From the NCBI GenBank assembly GCA_030620115.1, contig JAUXFG010000121.1, positions 1 to 12,053 of the forward strand: a stretch of 12,053 nucleotides of DNA, written 5' to 3'. A program made the translations under genes and the position numbers. The notes beneath the pieces are model-generated. The model was not told the origin of the DNA, made no database searches, and saw nothing but the letters and a program-made list of their open reading frames with translations. The stretch is from Candidatus Fermentibacterota bacterium (lineage in GTDB: Bacteria > JAFGKV01). This document shows positions 5,750 through 12,053 of the stretch, piece after piece. The first letter of the stretch is position 1; each line of letters opens with the position of its first letter.

Positions 5750-5761
5750 TTGGTGCAGATC

Positions 5762-7489
5762 ATGGGCCAGATAGAGAATCGACGTGCAAGGGCCAAGTTC
5801 TTGAAGGCGATATGGCCTGAGCTGCTCTTGGGCGCTCTCTTGGGCTGTGCCTATCTGCTGACCGTTCCGCTCTGGGAAGCGCCCGATGAGACGGCGCACT
5901 TTGGCAACATACTCTACGTGCGAAAACACGGCGCATACAAGCTGACCTATGGTGACGCGGGTCTCTATGGCATGTTCAAGGGTGAGACAACGCAGCCGCC
6001 CCCCTTCTACTTCGTCGCATCCCTCCTGACTGAGCCTTGGGCCACCCCCTCCGAGGTGAAGATAGAGCCCGTGGAAAACGCCGCCTGCAGGGACGATCCA
6101 TGGCGGTTCAGGAATCGAGGGGCTCAGGCATGGCCACGTATGATCAGGGGAGTGAGCCTTCTCTTTCTCCTCTTGACAGGCCTGGTGACAGCTGCCGCGG
6201 CTCGCGTGGCTTGCAAGAATGATAGGCACTTTCCCGCAACCGTGATGTCGATGATGTGGGCCGTTCCCCAGATGATGTTCTGCGGTGCGGCAATCTCGAA
6301 CGATGCGTTTGCCATGGCGGCGGGTGCATGTCTCCTCTACGTGTGGCTTCGCCTTCACCCCGCGTCGCGCCGGTGGAAGCTATTATTGATTGGCTTAGTC
6401 GGAGTCGCCGCGATTCTGGCCAAGTTCACTCTTGTTCCGCTGTATGCAGCCGGTCTCCTCTTGGTGGTGATCCAAGCGAGGTCCTCCTGGGGAAGAAGGA
6501 TTCTTGACGTGGTGTCCTATCTCCTGCCGGCTCTCGCAGGGCTTGGCATGCTCTGGATTATCCGGCCGGAGATGATTCGATCACTGATATTGATGCTCGG
6601 GCAGAGGGTCTTATATCCATTGCCCCATGTAGACTCTCTGGTAGCGCTTTCCCTGGCCTGGGAGTCGTATTGGGGCAGGTTTGGGTGGATGAATGTTTCG
6701 GCGCCGCCTTGGATGAAGGAGATATTCTTCACGCTGAGTATCGCCCTGACGATTGGTGTGGCGCATGCATGGGTGCGACGTCGCGAATGGCGGTGGGCAA
6801 TCACCTGTGGAGCGATGCTGGCAGGAACGACTATCATTGCCACGGGGCTTGATATCCGGTCTTCCGCGCAGGCGCAGGGAAGGCATCTCTTCTCGGCCAT
6901 TGGGGCTTTTTCTCTACTTGGGGCATTCGCCATTCGAGCCTATATGTCGTCTCGTCGGGCACGGCAGATGACCGCGGCACTTGCCCTCCTATTGAATGGC
7001 TACGTGCTTTGTCTGCTACTGCCCTCAGCCTATGGTCAGTCCCCGCCTGACCTTCTCTTGGGAACCGCGTGTTGCCATGGCCAAGTGCCGACACCGATTC
7101 TCGAGCCTGGCGCTCCGGAGAAGCAGCAATTTGTTTCAGCGATGCCAATGCTCAGCAGGGTCGGCGTTGTACCGGCCACTTTTGGTTTGCCCGTCAGGGG
7201 AACGGCCCGGCTCTCACTGCTGGAGGTGTGGACCGGGCATTGTCTGGCGGTGCGGGTGATTGATGCGGGAGAGATCGAGGATGGGCGGTATCTTTACCTT
7301 GATTTTCCACCATTGGACGATTCTGAGAATCAAGCGTACATCATCAAAATGGAGGTTCTGGAGAAGTTCAAGGGGCAGGTGGCCTTGTTCTGGAATCCCC
7401 TTGCTCCCTGCGAAGGCGCGGAGCGATTGACGGGGAGCGGCGATCTGAGGTTCGTGACCTATCACCACGAGGTCGAAGAAGGCGGTTAG
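5762..7489 (+). CDS. DUF2142-type polytopic membrane protein (GT-C glycosyltransferase-like), first paralogue
   Basis: This 575-residue integral membrane protein has a GT-C-like plan: a first helix, then PLWEAPDETAHFGN (about 36-49) in the first external loop, SND in a later loop (179-181), WGRFGWMN (304-311), QGRHLFSAIGAFSLLG (372-387), and a soluble C-terminal domain of about 120 residues ending GDLRFVTYHHE. The PDExxHF and QGR(Y/H)LF signatures are those of DUF2142, predicted to act on polyprenyl-linked sugars at the outer face; no member's substrate can be read from this sequence. An earlier in-frame ATG at 5627 would translate straight through the two hairpin repeats, so I place the start at 5762, where membrane-protein sequence begins, although its ribosome binding site is poor. 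The second paralogue starts 8 nt downstream, so the two form an operon. Confidence 0.8.
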   Translation: MGQIENRRARAKFLKAIWPELLLGALLGCAYLLTVPLWEAPDETAHFGNILYVRKHGAYKLTYGDAGLYGMFKGETTQPPPFYFVASLLTEPWATPSEVKIEPVENAACRDDPWRFRNRGAQAWPRMIRGVSLLFLLLTGLVTAAAARVACKNDRHFPATVMSMMWAVPQMMFCGAAISNDAFAMAAGACLLYVWLRLHPASRRWKLLLIGLVGVAAILAKFTLVPLYAAGLLLVVIQARSSWGRRILDVVSYLLPALAGLGMLWIIRPEMIRSLILMLGQRVLYPLPHVDSLVALSLAWESYWGRFGWMNVSAPPWMKEIFFTLSIALTIGVAHAWVRRREWRWAITCGAMLAGTTIIATGLDIRSSAQAQGRHLFSAIGAFSLLGAFAIRAYMSSRRARQMTAALALLLNGYVLCLLLPSAYGQSPPDLLLGTACCHGQVPTPILEPGAPEKQQFVSAMPMLSRVGVVPATFGLPVRGTARLSLLEVWTGHCLAVRVIDAGEIEDGRYLYLDFPPLDDSENQAYIIKMEVLEKFKGQVALFWNPLAPCEGAERLTGSGDLRFVTYHHEVEEGG

Positions 7490-7497
7490 AGGCAAGA

Positions 7498-9252
7498 ATG
7501 AGATATCCCTCGGTCATCCTGGTTGGAGTCGTGATGCTGGCGTTCCTTGCACTTGGCAGTGCGTACATCATGATCGTACCGCTTTGGGAATCTCCAGACG
7601 AACCATCCAACTTCTCCGCAGCCCAAGCAGTGGCAAGGGTGCATAGGGTACCCACCTTGTTCGAACAGCCGCTCTATCCTGGAGTTCTGATGAACTTCAA
7701 GAGACACCCACCTGCCTACTTCGTCCTCGCCGGTCTCCTCCTTTCCATCAATCCAGATATCAGACCTGAATTCATCGCCAACGAACGGGGTTTCGTCTCA
7801 TCCGAGATTGCCCACTACCGACACGGCGGTGGCATTCCGGCCGATCAGTTTCCCGGTGCTGCTTTCCTCAGGTTGCTTCGGGGAGCATCTCTGCTCTTCG
7901 GGGTCTTTACCTTGATTCTCATCTGGCGATGCGCCAGGCTGCTCTGGCCGCAGGACCGGATGCCCGCATTCATGGCCATCTGCTTTGGTCTTACGCCCAC
8001 CTTTGTTTTTTCGCACGCGGCCATTGATCCTCTGCCATTGGGTATCCTTGTGGCGAGCCTGATTATCTACCAGCTTCTTTGGATCTACGAGCAAGGCAGA
8101 GTGGAGCTTCGGCGATGGAAGTGGCTTGCCCTGCTTCTCGTGCTTGGGATGGCAACACGGGCAACGCTTGTATTCCTCTACCTTCCCGCGATCTGGCTCA
8201 TCAGAAGAGAGCCCAGGGGAGGGCGGATGAGGCTTGTGGGGCAGCTCGCTACACCCTTGGTGCTGGGTACTATCTGGATGCTTGTGCTTGCTCCCGGCCC
8301 AATGATGACTTCATTCCGGCAGCTTGGCTCTCAGCTTGTGCACCTGAATCGCGCATACCTTTCATTCGGCGGGCTGCGCACCATCATTCTGCATTCCAAG
8401 AACTCGCTCTGGGCTCGGTTTGGATGGGCGGATCTCTACCCACCGGCCAGACTCCTGGATGTGCTCGACGTGCTGGCACTGCTGGCAACGGCGGGATTGG
8501 TGATTCGTATTTGGAAGCGGACCATGTGTCCTGGCGCCCGCATGCTTCTGGCAGTAGGCGGCTTGGGCTTCCTGGGTTTCCTGCGAGCCAACCTGGCCCA
8601 GCCTGACCCGCAAGGTCGATTTCTTCAACTCGTGGTGGCTGCATATGCTCCCCTGGCCGGGCTCGGTCTAGCATGGTTTCTCCAGCGTACTGGAAAGCGA
8701 TGGATACCACTCGCTGCAGGCACGGTGTTGCTTCTTCTTTTGATCGGAATCAATGCCTACTGTCTGGCCTTTGTGATATATCCTGCCTACGCGGCTGAGG
8801 AGTACCCAGAGATGGAACTGGCCGCATATCAGGAGCAGGGAGCCATGCTCTGGGGTGGAGTTTCCTCGGGGCAGACATTCATCTGTCGAGAGCCTGGGCT
8901 TTGTAGGATCGAGCTCTATGTGACGCCTGTTGAGCTGCGCGAGGCAGCCATCCTGGAGTTTCGCCTTTCGCAGAGTTCCTTGCTTTCGGAGCCGTTTGTG
9001 GTGGCCCGTGTCCCCTACCCCGGCGTGGGGGACAGCCCCTATGTGGGATTCAGATTCAGCCCCATGTGGGATTCAAAGGATCGTAGCTATTTCGTCCAGG
9101 TAACACGGATTCCTCCGATAGATCCGATCAGTACTTGGTATACCCTGGAGGATCGCTACCTGGGCGGAACGCGCTACGCAGATGGAGCGCCGGTTCCCGG
9201 TGATCTGCGTTTCACGACGCATGTGGCGCTTCCCCCAGTTCCTTCTGAATAG
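7498..9252 (+). CDS. DUF2142-type polytopic membrane protein, second paralogue
   Basis: This 584-residue protein parallels its neighbour: VPLWESPDEPSNF (27-39), a degenerate AAIDPL (174-179) where the first copy has SND, LWARFGW (304-310), DPQGRFLQLVVAAYAPL (370-386) and a C-terminal soluble domain (about 455-575) ending GDLRFTTHV. The DE pair of the first loop is kept, but the histidine is replaced (SNF for AHF), so the two copies may differ in substrate or activity. AGAGG precedes the ATG by 5 nt, and only 8 nt separate it from the first paralogue. No other cell-surface or lipid-carrier genes are seen nearby. The last 41 nt overlap the 3' end of the convergent LarC-like gene. Confidence 0.85.
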   Translation: MRYPSVILVGVVMLAFLALGSAYIMIVPLWESPDEPSNFSAAQAVARVHRVPTLFEQPLYPGVLMNFKRHPPAYFVLAGLLLSINPDIRPEFIANERGFVSSEIAHYRHGGGIPADQFPGAAFLRLLRGASLLFGVFTLILIWRCARLLWPQDRMPAFMAICFGLTPTFVFSHAAIDPLPLGILVASLIIYQLLWIYEQGRVELRRWKWLALLLVLGMATRATLVFLYLPAIWLIRREPRGGRMRLVGQLATPLVLGTIWMLVLAPGPMMTSFRQLGSQLVHLNRAYLSFGGLRTIILHSKNSLWARFGWADLYPPARLLDVLDVLALLATAGLVIRIWKRTMCPGARMLLAVGGLGFLGFLRANLAQPDPQGRFLQLVVAAYAPLAGLGLAWFLQRTGKRWIPLAAGTVLLLLLIGINAYCLAFVIYPAYAAEEYPEMELAAYQEQGAMLWGGVSSGQTFICREPGLCRIELYVTPVELREAAILEFRLSQSSLLSEPFVVARVPYPGVGDSPYVGFRFSPMWDSKDRSYFVQVTRIPPIDPISTWYTLEDRYLGGTRYADGAPVPGDLRFTTHVALPPVPSE

Positions 9253-10378: not shown

Positions 10379-11380
10379 TCATGCATCGGTGCTAAGAAGA
10401 TGTGGCGAGATCCACTGATTCCGCAATGATCTGATGATCTCGATGAGCTCGCCATATGAGGAGGTTCTGAGAACCAGAGGGCGATACCGGCGGGCATCCG
10501 GCATACCGCGCAGGTATGCGGAGGCAACCCCGCGGGCACTAAAAAATTCCTGATTGTTTGGATCTGTCTCTGCCTGCAGAGTCAGGTGATGCAGCGCAAC
10601 CCCCAAGCGCTGGCGCCATGGCGGGTCCATTGCCGGAGTTTGGCCGGAGAGGATAGAAGCCGCTTGCTGGAGGAGCCACGGCCTTCCCACCGCGGCCCGC
10701 CCGATCATCACTGCCGCGCAGTCCGTCTGATCCACCATCCGCTTTGCATCACGAGGTTTCTCGATCCCTCCGTTCCCGATTACGGGAATAGACACTTCCT
10801 GCACAGCTCTGGCGATCCACTCCCAACTCGGTATGGTTGCAGGTGAATCAGATTTCGCTCGCGCGTGGAGAGTAATGGCGGCGATGCCTGCATCCTCCAA
10901 GGCACGGACCGTCCTAATGACCACGATTTCCCGGCGATTCCACCCTAGCCTGATCTTCGCTGTTACAGGGATGGAGACAGCCTTGACCGCCGCGTCGGCA
11001 ATGGCGCGGAGCCGTTCGCCGTCTCGAAGCAGGGCGGAGCCGGATCCGTTGGCAACGATCCGCCGGGCGGGGCAGCCGAAATTCAAGTCAATGATTCGAG
11101 TCCCCCGATCCTGCAAGAGGAGTGCTGCTTCAGCCATGATCTCGGGTTCCGAGCCGAAGATCTGCACGGCCCGGGGCTCCTCTTCGGGCTTGCCGCGAGC
11201 CATTTCCCAGCTCTTCGGATCTCCCCTTGTCAGGCCCACGGCACTGATCAGCGGCGTGACCACGAGACTGGCGCCATGCTCTCTGGCAACCTGTCGAAAA
11301 ACAGGGCCACCCACCCCGGCAAGCGGAGCCATGACGACCCTTCCATCGAGAACCACATCACCAATTCGAACAGAGCGCAC
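10379..11380 (-). CDS. dusB: tRNA-dihydrouridine synthase, DusB-type
   Basis: This 333-residue cytoplasmic flavoenzyme reduces selected uridines of tRNA to dihydrouridine using FMN and NADPH. Seen in order: VVMAPLAGVGGPVFRQ (15-30), AVQIFGSEPEIMAEAA (71-86), IDLNFGCPARRIV (97-109) with the expected catalytic Cys103, TAKIRLGW (140-147) with the FMN-contacting lysine, TLHARAK (170-176), IGNGGI (201-206) and VMIGRAAVGRPW (225-236). Two positions differ from typical DusB: the lysines after GCP are arginines (ARR), and HGRTR is HARAK with a shortened loop. The GTG at 11380 is chosen because GGAGGAG precedes it; the frame extends to a TTG at 11413 inside the hairpin. It is the first gene of an operon with the LarC-like gene. 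Confidence 0.92.
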   Translation of the reverse strand: MRSVRIGDVVLDGRVVMAPLAGVGGPVFRQVAREHGASLVVTPLISAVGLTRGDPKSWEMARGKPEEEPRAVQIFGSEPEIMAEAALLLQDRGTRIIDLNFGCPARRIVANGSGSALLRDGERLRAIADAAVKAVSIPVTAKIRLGWNRREIVVIRTVRALEDAGIAAITLHARAKSDSPATIPSWEWIARAVQEVSIPVIGNGGIEKPRDAKRMVDQTDCAAVMIGRAAVGRPWLLQQAASILSGQTPAMDPPWRQRLGVALHHLTLQAETDPNNQEFFSARGVASAYLRGMPDARRYRPLVLRTSSYGELIEIIRSLRNQWISPHLLSTDA

Positions 11381-11412
11381 CTTCTCCTCCCCTAAGGCGG
11401 CCTCTGGCCGCA

Positions 11413-11433
11413 ATCCCGCGCAGTACGCGGGAT
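11413..11433. repeat. TCCCGCG/CGCGGGA hairpin, copy 2
   Basis: ATCCCGCG-CAGTA-CGCGGGAT is a perfect 8-bp stem with a 5-nt loop, 33 nt upstream of the dusB start and so probably in its leader. The stem is identical to the hairpin at 1434-1452 while the loop differs completely. In both copies the 3' side runs into T(G/C)AGAAG. Confidence 0.65.
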
Positions 11434-11460: not shown

Positions 11461-11792
11461 GCCAATTTCCTCGCGAATCCGTCGGCTGACGGATCATTCC
11501 TCGGCTTCGTAGCTGGCCGTGAGCACACCAGCACTCTCAGAGCAACGGCCACAATCTATGCAAGAAACGGAGATAAGTCGGACAAAGCGACAGAATAATA
11601 CCCGATTCGGAGTTTCAAGAATCTCTAGTAAATCCATGGATTTACTAGAGATTTCGGCGGACATGCCTGTTCCGCCAATTCGTGCCCCCATATCGAGCTT
11701 CTACGGCCATGACGGAGCTCCATCATCCTCACTTCGACGTTGAATGTTCAATCCCTCATTCCCCTATTTCATATTTCCCAAATCCCCCTCCC
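11434..11792. other. gene-less stretch upstream of dusB
   Basis: No supported gene here. It holds the heptamer repeat and a 7-bp hairpin, ATCCGTC-GGCT-GACGGAT, at 11477-11494. A distant inverted pair, TGGCCGT/ACGGCCA, is at 11514-11520 and 11549-11555. The 34-bp palindrome comes next, followed by AT-rich low-complexity sequence. The dusB promoter must lie in this region, but I cannot point to convincing hexamers. Confidence 0.5.
11620..11653. repeat. 34-bp perfect palindrome
   Basis: AATCTCTAGTAAATCCA (11620-11636) is followed directly by its exact reverse complement (11637-11653), with no loop and no mismatch. It is clearly AT-richer than its surroundings and stops abruptly on both sides. 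No T-run follows, so it is not an ordinary terminator. Confidence 0.9.
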
Positions 11793-11892
11793 AGATTCTT
11801 CGGTCGCTCCACTCCCTCAGAATGACATACCTTCAGGCATCTATTGCGCGCAACCACTGTCATTCTGAGCGACGGCAGGAAGCGAAGAATCT
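11793..11892. repeat. palindromic 35+30+35 bp repeat unit 1
   Basis: A 35-bp element running from AGATTCTTCGGTCGCT to CTCAGAATGACA (11793-11827) is followed after 30 bp by its inverted, partly diverged copy (11858-11892: TGTCATTCTGAGCGAC to AGCGAAGAATCT). The outer 12 bp of the arms match perfectly and the middle is looser. Confidence 0.75.
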
Positions 11893-11969
11893 TTCTCTTC
11901 AAGATTGACAGATTTCAGATTCTTCCCTTCTCCCAATCAGTGTAATCTGTGGTTCCCATCTCCCCACCC

Positions 11970-12053
11970 AGATTCTTCGGTCGCTTCGCTCCCTCAGAAT
12001 GACACCTATTGTTACATCCAATGCCAATCACCCCTGTCATTCTGAGCGACCAC
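11970..12053. repeat. palindromic 35+30+35 bp repeat unit 2, cut by the window edge
   Basis: The left arm at 11970-12004 differs from that of unit 1 at only two positions (TTCG for CCAC in the middle). After exactly 30 bp comes TGTCATTCTGAGCGAC at 12035, the start of the inverted arm, which runs off the window. The 30-bp centres of the two units do not resemble each other. The sequence between the units (11893-11969) contains CAGTGTAATCTGTGGTTCC and further AT-rich intergenic sequence. Confidence 0.7.

Follow-up and report, generated by a model that had tools for sequence, protein, structure and literature searches.

The 34-bp palindrome AATCTCTAGTAAATCCATGGATTTACTAGAGATT at positions 11,620–11,653 of the window, the 12,053-nt stretch of DNA analysed here, is probably one copy of a dispersed, lineage-specific, REP-like and non-autonomous extragenic hairpin repeat (family 1) whose arms are kept identical. 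Two sequence-unrelated families of palindromes were found in the same small phylum, and the three families share a tendency to keep dyad symmetry while the sequence itself is replaced.

A dispersed family of perfect palindromes

The two 17-nt arms of the window palindrome abut with a spacer of zero and no mismatches. The 34-mer occurred in none of 200 shuffles of the window sequence, and two arm matches were seen in the window against 0.03 expected from shuffling, which agrees with a preliminary description of this DNA as carrying a flawless 17+17 palindrome that is very unlikely to be due to chance. Its AT-rich composition in GC-rich surroundings, also pointed out there, was confirmed (flanking DNA ~55% GC). 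The copy has outer arms of the AATCT/AGATT type, and one strand is predicted to fold into a 15-bp stem closed by an apical CATG tetraloop (11,635–11,638; z = −7.7 relative to shuffles), so the term 'loop-less' holds for the duplex but not for the hairpin.

Searches were made in the genome from which the window derives (G000), a fragmented 4.1-Mb assembly of 296 contigs. A 24-bp core of the palindrome matched at 61 places with up to three mismatches, and its reversed control at none. The search with the 17-nt arm, which had been suggested in the preliminary description, gave 132 matches at the same tolerance versus one for the reversed control, and nearly all of these matches are paired as palindromes; 26 copies are identical to that in the window across all 34 bp. 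Across the 63 copies read from fetched genome stretches, positions 1–18, counted outward from the centre, each carry 1.1 bits or more of information, followed by a sharp drop to 0.62 at position 19 and 0.39 at position 20. Judged from this sequence profile, family 1 is therefore an element of ~36 bp, with about 60–66 copies. The inferred full element of the window would span 11,619–11,654, where position 18 is mispaired (a left-hand G instead of the family's A, and a right-hand T).

The window palindrome lies ~205 bp upstream of the start of a tRNA-dihydrouridine synthase (Dus) gene (10,379–11,413, minus strand; Pfam PF01207, E = 9.7e-71), and the evidence gives no functional link between the two. 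A role as an operator of dus was rejected because copies adjoin unrelated genes and are not dus-specific. An intrinsic terminator is also disfavoured, as the stem is AT-rich rather than G+C-rich and neither a T run 3′ of the palindrome nor a terminator-like site was found in this region of the window; an Rfam search with the palindrome returned no matches. Elsewhere in the window, positions 11,793–12,053 carry a second dispersed repeat of ~35 nt (AGATTCTTCGGTCGCTCCACTCCCTCAGAATGACA / TGTCATTCTGAGCGA...GAAGAATCT) in inverted copies, several of them within these 260 bp, which also occurs near palindrome copies at L047, L060, L062 and L081. The plus strand at 5,750–9,252 encodes, one after the other, two proteins (579 and 584 aa) that resemble membrane proteins in sequence and have no Pfam match.

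The flanks of family 1 copies are largely unrelated: 86 half-flanks have nothing in common when compared at equal distances, and 36 fall into small clusters. Some of the clustered flanks are common to one side only, up to the palindrome, and part of the spread of the family may therefore reflect recombination or the duplication of larger repeats. A joined-flank search for empty sites among the fetched loci gave no convincing unoccupied copy, and no target-site duplication was visible at the copies. Overall, family 1 looks like a small, unusually perfect and probably mobile repeat, its mobility being suggested by its dispersal.

Other short repeats share the intergenic space of this genome, which looks like a mosaic of them. 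At two separate loci (L077:3006 and L140 near 6080), half a palindrome is fused directly to a long hairpin repeat, GAGCCACTTGCAAAACC...GGTTTTGCAAGTGGCTC, which points to an insertion of one of these hairpins into the other. A different hairpin repeat, GTCCCGCACCCAANGCNTTGGGTGCGGGAC, with a 13-bp stem and a 4-nt loop, was observed in several intergenic regions (L048, L045, L080, L036, L133, L138 and others).

Stem positions change in matched pairs

Variation among family 1 copies is mostly symmetrical. In arm notation, pair 14 is G-G in 50 copies and C-C in 8, pair 15 is A-A in 40 and T-T in 17, and pair 16 is T-T in 44 and A-A in 14, with only 4–5 unmatched copies at each pair. A further matched switch, from CTAG/CTAG to CCAC/GTGG, is present in three copies, with seven hybrids at the first of the two positions. 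One-sided stem changes show no excess of G-T pairs or intermediates, and hybrid copies join two different arm types. An apical CATA/TATG was found in 27 of 62 copies, always in one arm and never in both, and the longest predicted stem reaches 27 bp at L059, where the arms are nearly 30 bp long. These paired changes keep the dyad symmetry and support, at the level of structure, a cruciform, as proposed earlier, or hairpin former; they are also unlike the behaviour that would be expected within a pure sequence operator.

Unrelated palindrome families in the same phylum

The 24-bp core of family 1 had no matches in 59 other genomes and is absent from both other genomes of our three-genome phylum sample (G001 and G002, from a sister genus). 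A 20-bp core gave 13 matches in other genomes, 12 of them isolated, in other taxa and lacking the outer arms. The remaining one (L098; JAUXFM010000130.1, Lentisphaerales MAG CSMAG_2903) is a true family 1 copy, the only one in another record. This contig is probably misbinned from the lineage of the window or from a sister lineage, because it has several other intergenic repeats in common with the genome of the window (81% over 282 bp). No viral sequence searched with the 20-bp core matched.

A scan of the fetched stretches for perfect hairpins yielded two further families. Family 2 (TTAAGTTYCTGCGCAGRAACTTAA) occupies 33 places in the genome of the window, is unrelated in sequence to family 1 and is absent from G001 and G002. 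Its copies, at L139:1237–1272 and 32 other places, are loop-less (AACTGATTAAGTTCCTGC/GCAGGAACTTAATCAGTT), with hybrid half-types ATA, TTA, TTC and TCC. Family 3 (CACTATTCTAATATTAGAATAGTG and variants) is found at 24 places in G001 and 45 in G002, and is absent from G000.

The palindromes of family 3 often continue beyond the core into their flanks. An additional perfect inverted flank of at least 4 bp was present in 14 of 41 copies, versus a permuted mean of 0.93 and maximum of 6, and the mean inverted-flank run was 2.78 bp versus 0.57 bp after permutation (highest of 2000 permutations, 1.17). Examples of such extensions are gcgtgtttac/gtaaacacgc and cgccagggg/cccctggcg. At L230:2967–3010, L213:3071–3114 and L203:865–906, the inverted flanks are locus-specific and reach up to 10 bp past the core. 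For family 1, runs of at least 4 bp were seen in five copies against 1.2 expected.

G001 and G002 are sister species with ~70% DNA identity even within genes. Two pairs of orthologous regions carry family 3 palindromes at matching positions: in the L208/L213 pair the outer stems differ yet are both still paired, and in the L210/L230 pair the stem is extended in one copy only. Divergence between these genomes was too high for insertion points to be defined from orthologous gaps.

Placement relative to genes

All placement counts rest on gene calls from a simple, purpose-made and non-standard caller, by which about 65–70% of the sampled DNA is coding. By these calls, 62 of 63 family 1 copies lie outside genes and the remaining copy is in a weak ORF. 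One reading frame does encode ISSKSMDLLEI on both strands, as noted earlier, but with copies in intergenic DNA this coding looks incidental, and a peptide-coding interpretation was rejected. The genes beside family 1 copies are unrelated, with copies on both their 5′ and 3′ sides, and many copies are hundreds of bases away from any called gene. When the three families were pooled, 28 copies were within 60 bp of the 3′ end of a gene versus 7 within the same distance of a 5′ end. Family 1 is spread about equally over all four gap types and is not depleted in divergent gaps (11 of 44 copies), which hold 1 of 15 copies of family 2 and 3 of 36 of family 3.

Comparison with known repeats and candidate mobilising enzymes

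REP elements of the GTAG and CGTC superfamilies are found mainly 3′ of genes and in the gaps of tandem or convergent gene pairs (PMC3733652). Like them, family 1 consists of dispersed extragenic hairpins of 20–40 bp in tens of copies (61 places, ~36 bp, 62 of 63 copies extragenic), and the palindrome families also resemble REPs in having subfamilies with alternative complementary stem residues, in being species-specific, in the coexistence of several families in some genomes and in their placement downstream of genes. In contrast, REPs have an unpaired GTAG or CGTC at the foot of the stem, and family 1 has no such tag: at positions 17–26 of the half-flanks read, GTAG and CGTC were each found zero times and their complements once each. 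The REP stem is mostly 6–9 bp and at most 13 bp, whereas that of family 1 is 15–18 bp (in the window copy, 15 bp closed by a loop of 4 nt) and, unlike that of REPs, mostly perfect in its symmetry. REPs are associated with a RAYT gene flanked by the repeat, but no linkage to a cognate RAYT was found for family 1, and no head-to-head dimers were obvious among the copies read. Family 1 is therefore REP-like but falls outside REPs by tag, stem length and transposase linkage, and assignment to canonical REPs was rejected on these three features.

Genes for Y1/HUH (IS200-type) transposases are present in all three phylum genomes, with four in that of the window. One intact copy among the four has its own 31-bp terminal inverted repeats (TIRs) containing GGGGTCAG, which are TIRYT-like and unrelated to the palindrome. 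A decayed Y1 gene has a family 1 copy 215 bp away, on one side only, and another, intact Y1 gene is ~3 kb from a different copy. No Y1 gene of this genome has the palindrome both before and after it, and family 3 is missing from all eight Y1 loci in G001 and G002. A Y1 transposase as the cognate of family 1 was rejected, there being no consistent linkage.

TIRtrons and TIRYT comprise tyrosine transposases between TIRs with GGGGWSAS (PMC3733652). The Y1 gene with GGGGTCAG-containing TIRs is a point of likeness, as is one family 1 copy ~20 bp from a GGGGTCAG-type motif beside the decayed Y1 gene, but the palindrome is outside those TIRs, and the TIR motif was near one of about 60 family 1 copies versus two in controls. 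Cyanobacterial small dispersed repeats are very short, intergenic and apparently mobile, with no coding capacity, and a REPIN is made up of two inverted REPs plus a spacer. Family 1 shares these general properties with the cyanobacterial repeats and with REPINs (PMC3116915), a comparison made by description only, and differs from them in sequence and taxon; it also forms a single uninterrupted palindrome, unlike the REPIN with its spacer.

Alternative explanations

The paired stem changes could also arise if the palindrome were a functional RNA hairpin of 3′ or 5′ untranslated regions, such as an mRNA stabiliser, processing signal or protein-binding site, selected for structure and with a lineage-specific apical sequence. 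The excess at the 3′ ends of genes (28 versus 7) fits this, as does the occurrence of family 3 at matching positions in sister species at ~70% identity, with the different but paired outer stems of L208/L213. We nevertheless consider it unlikely, given the many copies hundreds of bases from called genes, the near-even spread of family 1 over the four gap types, the lack of a T run after the window palindrome and of Rfam matches, and the one-sided changes, most of which are not G-T compatible. Perfect symmetry and intergenic placement would likewise suit a genome-wide binding site for a chromosome-organising or regulatory dimer. This is very improbable, since each half conserves ~30 bits where ~17 bits would be enough for 60 sites in 4.1 Mb, the sequence switches in pairs within the site and it is replaced entirely between genera; the operator for a dimeric regulator that had been proposed for this palindrome is disfavoured accordingly, with ~60 dispersed copies beside unrelated genes.

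It had further been suggested that the palindrome represents the ends of an inverted-repeat element, fused after its excision. More broadly, it could consist of two abutted TIRs of a DNA transposon, either a MITE that lacks an interior or a scar left by excision or at a junction, with the complete element lost or missing from the assembly. The arms do mirror each other as inverted repeats and end sharply on the outside, the joining of two arm types in hybrid copies would suit ends that behave as separate modules, and the behaviour of a dispersed element was borne out. However, within this fragmented assembly of 296 contigs no longer element with family 1 arms as its ends was found and no arm pair surrounds a gene among the 132 arm matches, target-site duplications are not visible, and changes in the outer sequence are matched between the arms, which leaves this explanation rather improbable. 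Folded-back reads were also raised as a possible source, and five contigs (C78, C83, C104, C293 and C69) do end at or near a copy, but the chance of an assembly artefact is negligible: it cannot explain ~60 copies on different contigs with unrelated flanks that are not self-complementary past the element, and the same type of feature recurs with other sequences in other genomes.

A model for spread and symmetry

As a dispersed REP-like repeat, family 1 would work as REPs do, residing between genes, being tolerated near 3′ ends and forming a hairpin when single-stranded. Most likely its copying took place in trans, on the single-stranded DNA of the hairpin, and a Y1/HUH transposase of the genome is a possible enzyme for this step. 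The identity of the arms is probably kept by template switching within the hairpin, a process known to act on quasipalindromes (PMC7202029, PMC3820800). To judge from the outcome, the polymerase would switch template inside the hairpin, so that one arm is rewritten from its partner (quasipalindrome correction). Both arms would thereby change together, with no intermediate stage, and the palindrome would lengthen into the flanks, as may have happened to the arms of family 3. Alternatively, a requirement for the hairpin could maintain arm identity.

More tentatively, these families may represent tagless, near-perfect palindromic elements of a small phylum whose sequence is wholly replaced from genus to genus, and which either insert at a longer palindrome specific to the locus or create one through inverted copying. 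If so, they would target hairpin tips or lengthen their palindrome into the host flanks, and no such way of inserting or growing is defined for REPs. The three families bear on the way in which REP-like hairpins spread and retain their symmetry, and provide a natural data set for telling apart insertion targeted to hairpins, correction by template switching and selection for structure.
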